Assembly: GCF_027912535.1 (NCBI RefSeq) | Contig: NZ_CP115465.1 | Span: 1,654,001-1,718,000, forward strand | Length of the DNA: 64,000 bases | Direction of reading: 5' to 3' | Source: Brevundimonas sp. NIBR11 | GTDB lineage: Bacteria > Pseudomonadota > Alphaproteobacteria > Caulobacterales > Caulobacteraceae | Part shown: piece after piece, positions 46,956 to 63,739 of the stretch | Layout: each line of letters starts with the position of its first letter | Numbering within the stretch: position 1 is the stretch's first letter | Notes under the pieces: model-generated | What the model was told of the DNA's origin: nothing | Seen by the model: the letters and a program-made list of their open reading frames with translations, nothing else | The model's database searches: none | Translations under genes and position numbers: made by a program

Positions 46956-47047
46956 GGAGACGTGGCCGAGTGGCTGAAGGCAACGGTTTGCTAAATCGTC
47001 ATACCCTGTAAGGGGTATCGAGGGTTCGAATCCCTCCGTCTCCGCCA
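46956..47047 (+). tRNA. tRNA-Ser (anticodon GCT)
   Basis: A 92-base class II tRNA: acceptor GGAGACG with CGTCTCC, D-arm GGCCGAGTGGCTGAAGGC, anticodon stem/loop CGGTTTGCTAAATCG (anticodon GCT), long variable arm ATACCCTGTAAGGGGTAT, T-arm GGGTTCGAATCCC and CCA. Prophage genes begin 60 bases after its end, so its 3' end is a likely attachment site. Confidence 0.97.
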
Positions 47048-47090
47048 GAACTTTCCACCACCACAGGGTTTGAGCGGCGAGATTTGGTCC

Positions 47091-50799: not shown

Positions 50800-51067
50800 T
50801 GGAAGGGCCTTGGGCTTTGGCGAGGGCTTCGCCTGCATCCGTCAGGACCGCCACACCGCCCGTTCCAGCGGTAGGCCACCTCGCCAGACCCAGCGACATG
50901 AGCTTGCCGACGACCGTCGGAGAGGCCCCGAACGTGCGCCAAGCCGCCGTCCCGCAGTTGACCTGAGAGACCTTGCCGTCGCGGATCAGGCCCAGCGTTT
51001 CAGACTGGAGCGGCGTCAAAGGTTTAGCCGTATGCCCCGCCTTCACGCCTTCGGTTTGGGTGGTCAT
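50792..51067 (-). CDS. Winged-helix-like small phage protein
   Basis: A 91-residue protein. LTPLQSETLGLIRDGKV and the later VVGKLMSLGLARW ... VAVLTDAGEALA follow the helix-helix-wing pattern of winged-helix DNA-binding proteins. Likely a regulator or accessory protein; assignment by pattern only. Confidence 0.55.
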   Translation of the reverse strand: MTTQTEGVKAGHTAKPLTPLQSETLGLIRDGKVSQVNCGTAAWRTFGASPTVVGKLMSLGLARWPTAGTGGVAVLTDAGEALAKAQGPSNG

Positions 51068-51570
51068 GCGGCGAGCCTTTGCTGGTGGACCGCGACCGGA
51101 CTGGCGAGGATGCCTAGACCCGCTTCAGCGGCGTTGGTGAGAGCGCGAACGCCAAGTGCTCCTGAAGCCCAGAGCGCGGTCCCGTTGGCCGGCGACTTGC
51201 CCTCGGTGCCGTCCGGACGGAGGAAGCGGATCTTGGGCGTGAACATCACCGCGTCGGCGCGTTCCCAGGCCGAGCCGAACCAGGGCGCCGACGTGCGGTC
51301 AGGCGTCAGGGCGACGCCGTTGTCGTGGTCGAAGAACTTCGCCAGCCACGGCTCCAGCCCGTTCCGGCCGCCAAAAGGCGGGTTCATCCAGACGAAGCCG
51401 CTCCAGCCCTGAGCGAGACTGTCTGCCCACAGAACGCGAGCGGCAGGGACATGCGTCGTCAGGCCGTTCGGATGCGCCACGTCCAGATCGAACCGGACAC
51501 CCATCGCCGCGAACACATGCGGCGGCGTGAACCATTCGTCAGACGCGCCCGGTGTTTCCCACTGGCTCAC
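51064..51570 (-). CDS. Phage N6-adenine DNA methyltransferase
   Basis: A 168-residue enzyme of the phage Dam-type family (short, without a separate target domain). WFTPPHVFAAMGVRFDLDVA carries the SAM-binding part and WMNPPFGGRN at 61-70 the NPPF catalytic motif. It probably modifies phage DNA against restriction. It is directly downstream of the cytosine methyltransferase, with a four-base overlap. Confidence 0.85.
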   Translation of the reverse strand: MSQWETPGASDEWFTPPHVFAAMGVRFDLDVAHPNGLTTHVPAARVLWADSLAQGWSGFVWMNPPFGGRNGLEPWLAKFFDHDNGVALTPDRTSAPWFGSAWERADAVMFTPKIRFLRPDGTEGKSPANGTALWASGALGVRALTNAAEAGLGILASPVAVHQQRLAA

Positions 51571-55863: not shown

Positions 55864-55892
55864 ACTAAATACGATGTTTCGTATCCGCGCAA
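55864..55892 (-). promoter_or_regulatory. Candidate early leftward promoter PL
   Basis: On the minus strand TTGCGC (55892-55887) and TTTAGT (55869-55864) are 17 bases apart. Operator OL1 fills the spacer. The start of transcription would be near 55857, 18 bases before the first gene. Confidence 0.6.
55869..55884. promoter_or_regulatory. Operator OL1
   Basis: ATACGA-TGTT-TCGTAT, a perfect 6-bp palindrome around 4 bases and identical in its arms to the other phage operators. It sits between the -10 and -35 of PL. Confidence 0.75.
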
Positions 55893-55898
55893 CCGTAA

Positions 55899-55916
55899 AA
55901 TACGATTGTTCGTATT
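55899..55916. promoter_or_regulatory. Operator OL2
   Basis: AATACGA-TTGT-TCGTATT, a perfect 7-bp palindrome, centred 31 bp from OL1, the same distance as between two of the sites at PR. Confidence 0.75.
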
Positions 55917-55945
55917 GGCGTGGTGCGTCAGAAACGGACGCCGCC

Positions 55946-55986
55946 GCTTAGGGCGGGACTCGACTCCTTTCGCAGACTGGAGATTC
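55946..55986 (+). promoter_or_regulatory. GANTC cluster upstream of the 88-residue phage gene
   Basis: GACTC at 55957-55961 and 55962-55966 and GATTC at 55982-55986, three CcrM-type methylation sites within 30 bases, 26-55 bases before the ATG. GCTTAGGGCGGGAC at 55946-55959 repeats, inverted, a stretch at 47087-47100. A GcrA-type methylation-dependent promoter is possible (inference). Confidence 0.45.
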
Positions 55987-56011
55987 GTTAACAGCGAAGG
56001 GAGAGACGTAG

Positions 56012-56278
56012 ATGGCCAGAAAGACGATCTACTGCGCCCAGCCGTTTTGGTGCCGACAAGGGCTGCTGCAGGCCGGGCTCGTGCACGAGTTTCATACGGA
56101 GGATCGCGCGCGGACCGGCGGCGAGATACTCGCGGGCGCGGCGGACGGCGTTGCGGTGTTCAGTCTGACAGGCGAGCCCGACATCGACCTATGGGGCGAG
56201 CCGGTTATGATCTCGACCATTGGCCAGGTGCCGGGTGCGGAGCCCTGCTCCGATCCTTGGGATTGCGAAGCCGCCTAG
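56012..56278 (+). CDS. Small alphaproteobacterial protein of unknown function
   Basis: An 88-residue protein (MARKTIYCAQPFWCRQGLL ... AGEILAGAADGVAVFSLTG-type middle ... DIDLWGEPVMISTIGQVPG). I recall similar short proteins in many alphaproteobacteria and their phages, without known function. GAAGGGAGAG precedes the ATG. It reads rightward, against the early leftward operon, and has GANTC sites upstream. Confidence 0.7.
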   Translation: MARKTIYCAQPFWCRQGLLQAGLVHEFHTEDRARTGGEILAGAADGVAVFSLTGEPDIDLWGEPVMISTIGQVPGAEPCSDPWDCEAA

Positions 56279-59255: not shown

Positions 59256-59717
59256 ATGGCCGAACGTCTGACCTTCCTGGAGCACGCCGCGCTCGCCCGC
59301 CGGCTGATCGACAACCTGGGCGGACCTAAGAAGGCGGCGAAGCACTGCCGCGTCGGGGAGAGCGACCTGTCGCTGTATCAAAACCCCAATCGGCCCGACC
59401 GCATCATGCCGGCGGACGTCATCAGCGCACTGCAGATCGTCGGGGGCACGACCGAATACAGCGATGCGCTCACGGCGGAAGTCGATCAACCCGACCTGGT
59501 CGTCGCCGATCCGCTGCACCATGCCTGCGGCCTGATCCGTGAAGCCTCGGACGCCCTGAGCGCCATCGAGAAATCGGTCGCCGACGGCATCGTCTCTCCC
59601 GCCGAGTTCACCGTCTGCGAGACGGAGCTCGCCGAGCTAGAGGCCCGCCTCCCCATCATCCGCGCCGGCCTCCGCAGCAAGATGCTCGCTGCCCACGACG
59701 TTCGCCGCGCCGCCTGA
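59256..59717 (+). CDS. CII-like phage regulator
   Basis: A 153-residue protein. LIDNLGGPKKAAKHCRVGESDLSLYQNPNRPDRIMPADVISALQIVGG follows the helix-turn-helix style of the phage CII/regulatory family found in proteobacterial phages. The position after the Cro-like gene is that of cII in lambda. It may activate repressor or integrase synthesis; assignment is moderate. Confidence 0.62.
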   Translation: MAERLTFLEHAALARRLIDNLGGPKKAAKHCRVGESDLSLYQNPNRPDRIMPADVISALQIVGGTTEYSDALTAEVDQPDLVVADPLHHACGLIREASDALSAIEKSVADGIVSPAEFTVCETELAELEARLPIIRAGLRSKMLAAHDVRRAA

Positions 59718-59767: not shown

Positions 59768-60325
59768 ATGGCCAGGAAACTGAAAGAGACCCCGCCCGAC
59801 GCCGGTTCGTCCCCGTCGATCCCCAATGCGAACGAGGAAGCGAACTTCCTGTCGCACCTCAACAAGCTGAGGGGCCAGGAGAACAAGGTCGCCATCGCCA
59901 AGGCCGCCTACGACGCCGAGAAGTCGACGATGACGGACATGTTCCGCGACGCGAAGGCCGATGGCTTCAAGCGCAAGGAACTGCAGTCCATCCTCGACGA
60001 CGGCAAGGCCAGCCGACGCGACCTGGTGGCCGAGGAGGAGCGCCGGGCCCAACTCCGCATCTGGGCCGGTCTGCCGGCTGGAACGCAGCCCGATCTGTTC
60101 GGCCTGGGCGACACCGCCCGCGATGCCGTCGACGCCGACGCGCACGGCTATGCCATGGGCCGCCGGGGTGAGGACGAGATCCCGCCGGACTGGATCGCCC
60201 CGCCGCATCACCCCGACTTCTCGCAGGGCTGGAAGAGGGCGCAGGCCGAGCTTGCCGCCAACTTCACCAAAACGCCTGACACCGCCAACGACGACAGCGC
60301 CGCCCCGGAAGCCGAGGCCGCCTGA
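59768..60325 (+). CDS. Phage protein with GapR-like and RMF-like parts
   Basis: A 185-residue protein. Residues about 28-85 (IAKAAYDAEKSTMTDMFRDAKADGFKRKELQSIL) resemble the DUF2312/GapR coiled-coil DNA-binding family. The region near 118-158 (AHGYAMGRRGEDEIPP ... FSQGWKRAQAEL) has the GY-G-G-P-GW-AQ spacing of ribosome modulation factor. Both are pattern resemblances. GGAGGGCCAG precedes the ATG. Confidence 0.6.
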   Translation: MARKLKETPPDAGSSPSIPNANEEANFLSHLNKLRGQENKVAIAKAAYDAEKSTMTDMFRDAKADGFKRKELQSILDDGKASRRDLVAEEERRAQLRIWAGLPAGTQPDLFGLGDTARDAVDADAHGYAMGRRGEDEIPPDWIAPPHHPDFSQGWKRAQAELAANFTKTPDTANDDSAAPEAEAA

Positions 60326-60834
60326 TGTACCTCGCGCTCGACCTGGCCACCTGCACCGGCTTCTGCTTCGGAGAGCCCGACACCGGCGAACTGCCGACGA
60401 TCGGTCATATCCGCCTGCCGAAGACCGGCGAGGACGTCGGCTCCTTCCTCATCGCCTTTGAGGTCTGGCTGACGGAGAAGGTGCGCCAGGTCGAGCCGAG
60501 CCTTCTGCTCTTCGAGGCACCCATCCTCGCCTCCAGCGTGACGACGCACGTCACACGCAAGCTCCACGCCCTCGCCGGCATCACCGAAATGGTCGCGAAC
60601 CGCGCCAAAGTCGAATGCGCCGAGGTTTTCCCGGTCACGGTCAAAAAGGCCCTCACCGGCTCCGGTCGGGCGGACAAGGACGAAATGGTCCGCGCCGCCC
60701 GCGCCTACGGTTTCAACCCAGCCGTCCCCGACGAAGCGGACGCCTTCGGTCTGTGGCTCCACGCCGTCAGGACCCGGTTCCCCAAGGATGCCGGACGCTG
60801 GGATCCCCTGAACTTCACCCCGAGGGCAGCATGA
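60325..60834 (+). CDS. RuvC-like Holliday junction resolvase
   Basis: A 169-residue RNase H-fold nuclease. Catalytic acidic residues fit the RuvC pattern: Asp6 in ALDLAT, Glu64 in LLFEAP, and Asp136/Asp139 in PDEADAFGLW. Phage copies resolve branched replication or recombination intermediates. The ATG overlaps the previous stop and its own stop overlaps the GcrA-like gene. Confidence 0.85.
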   Translation: MYLALDLATCTGFCFGEPDTGELPTIGHIRLPKTGEDVGSFLIAFEVWLTEKVRQVEPSLLLFEAPILASSVTTHVTRKLHALAGITEMVANRAKVECAEVFPVTVKKALTGSGRADKDEMVRAARAYGFNPAVPDEADAFGLWLHAVRTRFPKDAGRWDPLNFTPRAA

Positions 60835-61601
60835 CGATCGTACACTGGACCAAAGACATGGACGACGTGCTCGATGAGCAGTGGGCGCTCCTGACACCAA
60901 GCGAAGCAATCGCCGCAATGATCGGCGTAAGTCCGGATCAACTCCGCTATCGCGCGCGCCGCCGCGAGCTGGCGAAACGCCCAGCCGGCAAGCCGAAGGT
61001 CGATCCCGAGAGCACCTGGGGCGACCCTGCTAAAGTGGCGGAGCTTTCCAAGATGTGGATTGCTGGTCTGTCCGCTTCGACTATCGGCGCAAAGCTGAAG
61101 GTCGGCCGGGCTGCTGTTATCGGCAAGGTTCACCGGCTCGGGCTGTCTCGCGTGGGCCGGGAGCCAGCTTCAGCCCCGTCACGCCTCCCGAAGGCTCCGA
61201 TCGTTGCGCGTGACCGTCACGTCGGCAGGACTGGCGACCGATTCAAGCCCAAGGCCCCAAAGCCCGCCGATCAGTCGCCTTTCGCTGGCCGGGCTACATC
61301 ACCCTCTGAGGCAGCAAAGAAACGAGCCGATGCCCAAATGGCCGGTCTCCAGTCCATCCTCCAGGCAGCCGAACCAGCGAACGACGACGCAATCCCCCTG
61401 ATCAACCGCCGAGCCTTCCAATGCTCCTGGCCAGTCGGCGAGCCGGACCGCCGGGCTGAACAACTCTGCTGCGGCCAGCCTGTGATCGGCGAGCGCACCA
61501 AGTCCACCCAGACCTACTGCGACAGACACCGCCAGCGGGCTGCACCGAACGGCATCCCTATCGCACGCGACCTGATCCGCTCAGTTCGGAGGGCGGCATG
61601 A
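60831..61601 (+). CDS. GcrA-family cell-cycle regulator homologue
   Basis: A 256-residue protein. Residues 63-108 carry the GcrA core: W at 63, KVAELSKMWIAGLSASTIGAKL and AVIGKVHRLGLS. The C-terminal part (CSWPVGEP ... LCCGQPVIGE ... YCDRH, about 197-240) matches the RNA-polymerase-binding end of GcrA. An extra N-terminal 60 residues (LTPSEAIAAMIGVSPDQLRYRARRREL) look like another HTH. Host GcrA reads GANTC-methylated promoters with sigma-70; the phage copy could redirect that. The ATG overlaps the resolvase stop, with GAGGG upstream. Confidence 0.85.
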   Translation: MTIVHWTKDMDDVLDEQWALLTPSEAIAAMIGVSPDQLRYRARRRELAKRPAGKPKVDPESTWGDPAKVAELSKMWIAGLSASTIGAKLKVGRAAVIGKVHRLGLSRVGREPASAPSRLPKAPIVARDRHVGRTGDRFKPKAPKPADQSPFAGRATSPSEAAKKRADAQMAGLQSILQAAEPANDDAIPLINRRAFQCSWPVGEPDRRAEQLCCGQPVIGERTKSTQTYCDRHRQRAAPNGIPIARDLIRSVRRAA

Positions 61602-62136: not shown

Positions 62137-62315
62137 ACCGGAAAGACCTCGTAGCCTTCGAACAGCACTACGCCTCGATGCTTCGCCGGGAGGCGAAGGC
62201 TCGGGCGAAGCGATACCCGGCGATCGCTGACCAGCTGACGCGCTGGGCGGACGCTGCTGTTGCCCGTGCTGAGACCGTCCGGTGTGGCCCCCTGTTCTCG
62301 GGAGCACCCGAGTAA
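62133..62315 (+). CDS. Small basic phage protein
   Basis: A 60-residue helical protein (MNRKDLVAFEQHYASMLRREAKARAKRYPAIADQL ...). The GTG start overlaps the stop before it (GTGA) and the stop overlaps the dnaB ATG by one base. Confidence 0.58.
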   Translation: MNRKDLVAFEQHYASMLRREAKARAKRYPAIADQLTRWADAAVARAETVRCGPLFSGAPE

Positions 62316-63739
62316 TGGATCCACGCGACCAGAACCCTGGCCTCTCTCTCCCGGCCAACCTTGAAGCGGAGCAGGCGCTGCTGGGCATCCTGCTCTATGA
62401 GCCGACCGCGCTCCGCGAGGTTCAGGACCGGGTGTCGGCGGCTGACTTCTCCGAACCGTTTTATCAACGCCTCTTCGCCGCGGCCTGCGAAGGCATCCAG
62501 CAGCAGGGCCAAGCCGATAGCGCTCTTCTGTCCGGCAAACTGGCCAACGATCCCGCCTGGGGTGACTTCGGCGGCGCGGCGGGTCTTGGTGACCTGATCG
62601 AAAAGGCCGGATCGCCGAAACTCGCCGCAGACTATGCTCTCCAGATCGCCGACGCGGCCATCCGACGGCGCTTGATAACCATGGGCCATGAGGCCGTGAC
62701 GCGCGCCTATGCCGACTATCTGTCTGGGTTCGAGGCGATCGCCGCCACCCGTGCCGCGCTGGAAGACGCCGAGCGCGGCTCTGCCCCCGAGGACGCACTG
62801 TTCGTCAACGCCAACGATGCCGCCCTAGCTCGCATGGACCGGCTCGAGATCGAGGTCGCCACCGGGAAACCCAAGGGCATCCAGACCGGCCTCTCCAGCT
62901 TCGACAAGCGCCTCGGTGGCCTGATGCCGGGTTCGGTCATCGTCCTCGCCGGGCGGCCAGGCATGGGCAAGACTGCCTTGCTGGGCAACGTCCTCTACGG
63001 CGCCGCCATCATGAACTCGAACAAGCTGTTCGCGGGCTTCTCCCTGGAGATGGACACCGACCAGCTCAACGACCGTGCCCTGTCCCGCCTGACGGTCGAC
63101 GAGGATCAGCCAGTGTCGTTTTCGGACATCGCCAAGGTGCGGCCGCTCACATCGTTCGACCTTGCCGCACTTCATCGCGCCAAGAACCGCATTCCTCGAA
63201 ACCTCTGGCTCCGCGATCGGGCCGGGGTGTCCGTCGAGGACGTAGCTCGCGCCGTCTGGGCGATGAAGCGCCGCGGCGACCTTGGCGCCATCGGGATCGA
63301 CTACCTGCAGCTGATGAAGCGCCCCGCCCTCGCCGGCCGGAACGAGGCTAGCGCCATCGCCGAGATGACCGGGGCCCTGAAGAACCTAGCACGCGAGGCC
63401 AAGATCTCGATCCTCCTGCTGTCCCAGCTCAACCGATCGGTCGAGAGCCGCGACGACAAGCGTCCGATGCTGTCGGACCTGCGAGAGTCGGGCTCCATCG
63501 AGCAGGACGCTGACGCCGTCCTCTTCCCCTATCGCGAGGTCTACTACCTTCAGAAGGCAGAGCCGAAGCCTGACCCGACCGGGATGAACGGCGCGCACTT
63601 CGAGTGGGAGATGCAGGTCGAGAGCTTGCGGACCCACATGGACGTCATCGTCGCCAAGAACCGCCACGGCTCGGAGGGCGCGGAGCCGCAGTCCTACCGC
63701 GCCGAGATCGACCTCATTGAAGACCGGAGGGCCGCATGA
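62315..63739 (+). CDS. dnaB: Replicative DnaB-like helicase
   Basis: A 474-residue hexameric helicase. N-terminal DnaB domain (ANLEAEQALLGILLYEPTALREV), Walker A GRPGMGKT at 213-220, Walker B IGIDYLQLM near 320, and the LSQLNRSVESRDDKRPMLSDLRESGSIEQDADAVLF region. It unwinds phage DNA. The start ATG overlaps the previous stop (TAATG). The next gene overlaps by four bases. Confidence 0.93.
   Translation: MDPRDQNPGLSLPANLEAEQALLGILLYEPTALREVQDRVSAADFSEPFYQRLFAAACEGIQQQGQADSALLSGKLANDPAWGDFGGAAGLGDLIEKAGSPKLAADYALQIADAAIRRRLITMGHEAVTRAYADYLSGFEAIAATRAALEDAERGSAPEDALFVNANDAALARMDRLEIEVATGKPKGIQTGLSSFDKRLGGLMPGSVIVLAGRPGMGKTALLGNVLYGAAIMNSNKLFAGFSLEMDTDQLNDRALSRLTVDEDQPVSFSDIAKVRPLTSFDLAALHRAKNRIPRNLWLRDRAGVSVEDVARAVWAMKRRGDLGAIGIDYLQLMKRPALAGRNEASAIAEMTGALKNLAREAKISILLLSQLNRSVESRDDKRPMLSDLRESGSIEQDADAVLFPYREVYYLQKAEPKPDPTGMNGAHFEWEMQVESLRTHMDVIVAKNRHGSEGAEPQSYRAEIDLIEDRRAA

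Follow-up and report, generated by a model that had tools for sequence, protein, structure and literature searches.

A GcrA-family protein with an added N-terminal helix-turn-helix in the replication operon of a Brevundimonas prophage

What might a prophage gain from a GcrA protein of its own? The question is raised by an ORF on the + strand at 60831–61601 of the window, by which we mean the whole stretch of 64,000 nucleotides analyzed here from Brevundimonas sp. NIBR11 (NZ_CP115465.1, positions 1,654,001 to 1,718,000). The initial annotation read the ORF as a prophage-borne GcrA homologue with an extra N-terminal helix-turn-helix (HTH)-like segment that may retune host cell-cycle transcription or switch phage promoters by methylation state.

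The ORF runs from an ATG at 60831 to a stop codon at 61599–61601 and encodes 256 amino acids. A Pfam profile search matched GcrA (PF07750) to residues 62–237 with an E-value of 1.1e-20 and 75 bits against a curated cut-off of 26.9, in agreement with the family first assigned, and both segments quoted for that assignment (AVIGKVHRLGLS and CSWP...CG...YCDRH) are present in the translation. Only Caulobacter GcrA was matched among solved chains at E ≤0.1, with E-values of 3.4e-10 for the full-length protein (7ye1) and 9.9e-7 for the DNA-binding domain (5yiu). The core GcrA-type DNA-binding domain, placed by alignment and by the 5yiu match at residues 63–106 (61017–61148, + strand), retains the GcrA recognition segment AVIGKVHRLGLS, although the residues immediately ahead of it are GRA in the prophage protein and TRN in the host. 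In the C-terminal Cys/WP/His tail (61398–61598, + strand), the predicted equivalent of the sigma-interacting domain, residues C198, W200, P201, G203, C214, Y229, C230 and H233 are invariant in alignment A1 of 53 relatives. For GcrA, DNA binding has been reported for residues 1–45 and sigma interaction for residues 108–173 (PMC7403470). Against the NCBIfam GcrA equivalog model NF050816 the window protein reached 59.7 bits, far under the cut-off of 280. Judged by its sequence, the ORF at 60831–61601 is a true GcrA-family protein.

The host chromosome (3.17 Mb, one contig) carries a separate gcrA with an ORF of 177 amino acids. The prophage protein is 79 residues longer, as against the "about 80" of the initial annotation; about 60 of the surplus residues form the N-terminal extension, and the rest are mainly a longer linker. 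It shares the core DNA-binding domain and the Cys/WP/His sigma tail with host GcrA of Caulobacter and Brevundimonas (PF07750; PDB 7ye1, 5yiu, 5yix) but differs in its added HTH, its longer linker, its low equivalog score and its separate tree branch. The host genome also encodes an adenine/cytosine-N4 methyltransferase of the CcrM fold (PF01555, 241 bits), which is a candidate CcrM.

The extra HTH lies in the N-terminal extension (residues 1–62; 60831–61016, + strand). There is no obvious sign that a misplaced start codon produced this extension, because the in-frame starts after the ATG at 60831 all fall within the extension or the core domain and none falls just ahead of the core. We aligned ten extensions, selected by eye among the 12 rows (out of 53 in alignment A1) that have more than 25 residues ahead of the core, and compared them by hhalign with a profile of the GcrA DNA-binding domain. 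The two profiles, both of which contain the window protein's own domains, matched over 43 columns with a probability of 97.9% (98.5% on repeat), whereas the best of 200 column-shuffled controls reached 11.3%. These scores describe the alignment of ten, in which the window extension alone scored lowest (8.5 bits, E-value of 0.0011 in a search space of 10). The recognition helix of the added HTH shows no resemblance to that of GcrA. The HTH-like segment proposed at the outset is, on these profile comparisons, a diverged GcrA-type HTH.

The extension is of the same HTH type as the D5-like phage regulators of PHROG 323, which matched the window protein over the added HTH only (residues 5–59, E-value of 2.4e-5); the protein gave no PHROG 323 match over a tandem HTH array, and the GcrA tail lies outside PHROG 323. 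HTH pairs were matched in the GcrA proteins P0030 (1.8e-13), P0031 (5.2e-16) and P0035 (8.9e-12) and in that of Bajun (5.2e-10), other extended GcrAs were matched weakly (P0007, 0.083; P0014, 0.013; P0018, 0.033; L042, 1.6e-4), and P0006 and P0008 gave no match at 0.1. The GcrA of Brevundimonas phage vB_BgoS-Bajun has two tandem GcrA-type HTHs (hmm E-values of 8.7e-17 and 1.4e-7) followed by a sigma-type tail; unlike the window prophage, Bajun is a large phage of the Dolichocephalovirinae, and its GcrA sits on a distant branch.

The prophage origin of the gene was borne out by its surroundings: gcrA lies in the replication operon of a tRNA-Ser prophage of roughly 54 kb. The tRNA-Ser end is at 47047, within a candidate left attachment site (47034–47049) that has a 16-bp copy 54 kb downstream (G000:C1 1755492), and a 410-amino acid ORF beside this copy reads like a tyrosine integrase. 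We place terminase, portal and capsid genes farther along the element, and its exact right-hand part, by our reading of the ORF list. Between the tRNA-Ser and the 16-bp copy are Dam-type and Dcm-type methyltransferases, RecT, an HTH repressor and a rightward operon in the order CII-like, 185-amino acid ORF, RuvC-like, GcrA, small ORFs and DnaB. The CII-like activator gene (59256–59717, + strand; PHROG 101, E-value of 3.5e-9), the RuvC-like gene (60325–60834, + strand; PHROG 159, E-value of 2.8e-23), whose stop codon overlaps the gcrA start in a shared ATGA, and the DnaB-like replicative helicase gene (62306–63739, + strand; PF03796, E-value of 9.9e-65; start chosen at 62306 in a longest ORF from 62282) are the early replication genes among which gcrA had been said to lie.

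The Dam-type N6-adenine methyltransferase gene (51064–51570, − strand; PF05869, E-value of 8.3e-9) has an NPPF motif, and GANTC-specific phage methyltransferases bearing NPPW/F/Y motifs have been reported from Sinorhizobium and Paracoccus (PMC5537653); the prophage might thus hold writer and reader together. At the right end of the element, four GANTC sites fall within 56 bp (joined coordinates 96840–96895; G000:C1 about 1750840–1750895) just upstream of a 325-amino acid ORF that we read as a putative DNA ligase.

Phage GcrA has itself been published already. Gill et al. (2012) described homologues encoded by five out of six phiCbK-like phages, for which they proposed up-regulation of host replication (PMC3556154), and GcrA has been noted in Agrobacterium phage Atu_ph08 (PMC6630229), in Sinorhizobium prophages (PMC12429752) and in a coral-associated phage (PMC11309003). 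Like the window gene, those for phiCbK gp222 and other phage GcrA homologues are phage-borne and have a replication neighbourhood (PMC3556154); unlike the window protein, the GcrAs of the phiCbK-like kind contain a single HTH and cluster with the host sequences in our tree. At an E-value of 0.001 we obtained 321 matching proteins (the best 120 of the 321 are listed). By tblastn at 0.01 the window protein matched none of 50,697 annotated phage records, in which host GcrA as the query gave 33 matches, 26 of them in Caulobacter phages.

The slot behind ruvC was almost always occupied. A viral search seeded with ruvC gave 68 loci; in the 38 closest (to 34% identity), many of them on contigs already found via gcrA, a GcrA-profile match lay directly downstream in 37, including a weak one (L202, E-value of 0.0007) and one to the tail only (L198). 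In IMG/VR, a dnaB match lay downstream in 39 of 46 gcrA loci. Altered tails or an HTH only were seen in the slot relatives L173, L177, L194, L195, L199, L201 and L202. Within this phage group nearly every such slot holds a gcrA, a core gene of these temperate phages in which the second HTH appears again and again. The gene also adjoins replication genes in phiCbK, MD18 and Ssp-JY42. The copy in Phaeobacter phage MD18 (L125, 995–1369) encodes the DNA-binding domain of GcrA but no sigma tail and adjoins a DNA polymerase III epsilon gene; in Synechococcus phage Ssp-JY42 (L121, PP438432) gcrA is followed by a DnaB-like gene, and although the recorded host is cyanobacterial our guess is that the true host is an alphaproteobacterium. 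In a control search, the Pfam GcrA model also scored above its cut-off in the archaeon Sulfolobus acidocaldarius.

In a tree of 128 rows, built quickly without bootstraps and with several long branches, the 26 host proteins lie on one side of a branch with an SH-aLRT value of 82, and the temperate-phage proteins stand apart from them except for L120, which falls among host and lytic-phage rows. The extra HTH occurs in 21 of the 128 rows, and the other 107, the 26 host rows included, are short; the labels of viral rows as extended or short follow start codons chosen with a preceding ribosome site, and the group was named post hoc. At least 11 changes are required across the tree, and a single origin of the N-terminal HTH was ruled out, one clade being rejected with an AU p value of 1.7e-73. 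Our literature searches returned no account that we recognized of a two-HTH phage GcrA or of the promoter described below, which does not imply absence from print; the two-domain form and a phage promoter with conserved methylation sites look new.

Dereplication of 47 loci left 37, this prophage among them, in which we counted GANTC alongside seven other palindromes of equal composition. GANTC was the rarest of the eight in coding DNA (0.85 per kb versus 1.94–3.82) and had the highest intergenic-to-coding ratio (1.71 versus 1.04–1.41); GANTC enrichment in intergenic DNA has been reported for the Alphaproteobacteria (PMC7987155). Clusters of three GANTC per 100 bp were rejected as a signal: they occurred in 10 of 37 loci, below every control palindrome (15–33 of 37), because GANTC is rare and the counts are uncorrected for density. 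We then took the 130 bp ahead of the genes in 15 groups, both early and late, leaving this prophage uncounted and omitting groups with fewer than four distinct upstream regions, a distance that misses promoters lying farther out. Seven groups had no GANTC and none was enriched relative to seven control palindromes, with counts of 0/9 for recE-like, 0/8 for repressor, 0/12 for cII-like, 0/13 for ruvC and 1/5 for terS. The late terS promoter was rejected as a general GcrA target; it has a GANTC 52 bp ahead of the gene here, and the 220 bp before terS hold none in 10 of the 12 other loci that gave a terS match, a set that contains near-copies such as L034 and L056. A survey of phage genomes reported predicted GcrA sites without positional asymmetry (PMC9437464), a result at odds with broad control of phage genes by GcrA.

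One element stood out, by conserved position only and not by GANTC clustering. Ahead of an 88-amino acid gene at 56012–56278 (+ strand) lies a promoter-like element (55957–55992, + strand) with GANTC at 55957, 55962 and 55982 followed by GTTAAC, the upstream sequence being GACTCGACTC, 15 bp and GATTCGTTAAC. The 88-amino acid protein matched nothing in Pfam or NCBIfam. With alignment A2, whose ten proteins had themselves been found behind the DNA element, we retrieved 21 viral loci and 19 genomic copies (40 in all, with 30 distinct upstream regions). Within 130 bp upstream, 28 of the 30 had at least one GANTC, 22 at least two and 10 had three, against 5–10, 0–2 and 0 for the seven controls; the element loci are related to each other and the counts are not independent. 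All ten copies with three sites are loci first found via the DNA element; in the 20 loci not found that way the corresponding numbers were 18, 12 and 0 (controls 2–8, 0–2 and 0). The distance to the proximal GANTC was 25 bp in 15 pairs, 20 in 13, 5 in two and 26 and 21 in one each, and in the 20 loci not found via the element 25 (six), 20 (four) and 5 (two).

The proximal site fits YGAKTCK, the extended motif described for activation by GcrA in C. crescentus (PMC7987155), in 16 of 28 cases and in 7 of 18 outside the element-found set, compared with 15 of 139 sites in 124 kb of this genome; the proximal site of the window itself, AGATTCG, does not fit. For B. subvibrioides, the same report describes no preference for the extended motif (PMC7987155). 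Two operator-like palindromes, ATACGA-N3/4-TCGTAT, were noted by eye at 55869–55915, and a conserved imperfect palindrome close to GCGYCA-N5/6-GGWCGC (about 55922–55942, some 15–35 bp upstream of the GANTC element) is possibly a site for another regulator.

The cassette of element and gene (MARKTIYCAQ...; 55957–56278; relatives L127–L166) is shared by prophages that differ elsewhere, some with gcrA and some lacking it. A GcrA match was present in 17 of the 21 viral records that contain the small gene (G131 is partial, with an internal stop), whereas gcrA lay within 10 kb of only 8 of the 19 genomic copies, which come from 17 of 131 genomes of the genus and where further ones may be concealed by contig ends. 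On this last count the element is not specifically tied to phage gcrA. Prophages G133 and G135/G051 have the cassette and no GcrA match, and the gcrA-bearing record G144 has no GANTC at the small-gene promoter. The presence of the cassette in prophages without gcrA implies that host GcrA may serve the 56012 promoter, which could be run by host GcrA and CcrM; a 26-gene prophage operon of B. subvibrioides whose expression is reported to depend on host GcrA (PMC7987155) is a precedent for host GcrA driving a prophage promoter. The proposal that phage promoters are switched by methylation finds support only in the conserved GANTC at the 56012 promoter, and none in the 15 unenriched gene groups. 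We regard the GANTC promoter at 55957–55992 as the most useful new lead.

We infer that the prophage GcrA would bind sigma-70 and methylated GANTC, and the best explanation of the locus as a whole is that the phage owns a sigma-70 cofactor of the GcrA family, to which we give about even odds (a probability near 0.5). Expressed together with the replication operon (CII-like, RuvC-like, GcrA, DnaB), the protein would join RNA polymerase through a tail equivalent to the part of the host protein that binds sigma-70 domain 2. There it would drive promoters with methylated GANTC, chiefly those of the host S phase plus a single conserved promoter of the phage, that of the 56012 gene, and would keep the cell permissive for replication regardless of the host GcrA level. 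The added HTH would make a further contact to DNA with a specificity unlike that of the core, in the manner of D5-like phage regulators with tandem HTHs. That it retunes host cell-cycle transcription, as the initial annotation suggested, is plausible, and the same reading has been published for phiCbK gp222 (PMC3556154). The cofactor reading is favoured by the PF07750 and solved-GcrA matches with tail residues invariant across 53 aligned relatives, by the conserved slot (after ruvC in 37 of 38 loci examined, before dnaB in 39 of 46 IMG/VR loci) and the replication neighbourhoods of phiCbK, MD18 and Ssp-JY42, by one phage promoter with conserved GANTC and by a host that owns both gcrA and a CcrM-fold adenine methyltransferase. 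Against it stand GRA for TRN ahead of the recognition segment, an equivalog score of 59.7 of 280 bits, the lack of GANTC enrichment outside a cassette that gcrA-less prophages also carry, and a proximal site in the window outside YGAKTCK.

The lack of enrichment at early and late phage genes would suit a protein whose added HTH guides the tail that binds sigma to a site other than GANTC and specific to the phage, for example a late or replication promoter, so that it acts like a phage late activator and methylation has little weight. The different recognition helix of an HTH with a history of at least 11 gains or losses and the D5-like matches of the HTH pairs in P0030, P0031, P0035 and Bajun point the same way, but we consider this rather doubtful: most relatives in the same slot lack the added HTH (107 of 128 rows are short, 26 of them host), the core domain still carries the recognition segment of GcrA, and the D5-like match is weak in P0007, P0014, P0018 and L042 and absent at 0.1 in P0006 and P0008. 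The conserved GANTC with its fixed 20/25-bp spacing, the GcrA match in 17 of 21 viral small-gene records and the 26-gene B. subvibrioides operon that needs host GcrA (PMC7987155) are instead what one might see if phage GcrA acted on phage promoters, above all that at 56012, with methylated DNA as the on state and fast replication as the off state. Such a switch seems unlikely, with gcrA within 10 kb of only 8 of 19 small-gene copies in 17 genomes, the element kept in prophages without gcrA, G144 carrying gcrA and no GANTC there, and the terS-upstream GANTC unconserved (absent in 10 of 12 loci). Improbable to a like degree is an epigenetic read-out module of temperate Brevundimonas phages, in which a chimeric GcrA (D5-type second HTH plus sigma-70-binding tail) and a cognate promoter of two to three GANTC with 20/25-bp spacing before the small gene would fire on fully methylated DNA, resident or freshly entered, and fall silent once replication outruns methylation; we marked it down slightly because all triple-GANTC copies were found via the element itself. 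Finally, the phage protein might block host GcrA at sigma-70 or GANTC sites and so stall the cell cycle. The tailless DNA-binding domain of MD18 and the slot relatives with altered tails or an HTH only speak for this reading, but it is quite unlikely for the window copy, where the tail signature is intact.

If the sigma-cofactor reading is true, the replication module of an entire group of temperate phages of Alphaproteobacteria is organized around their own copy of the methylation-reading sigma cofactor of the host. The second HTH, acquired and lost time and again, would then amount to a natural experiment on how an activator bound to sigma can be redirected. Independently of the protein, the GANTC promoter with its fixed spacing is a compact candidate for a methylation-responsive phage promoter, and a lead on the reported dependence of the B. 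subvibrioides prophage operon on host GcrA (PMC7987155).
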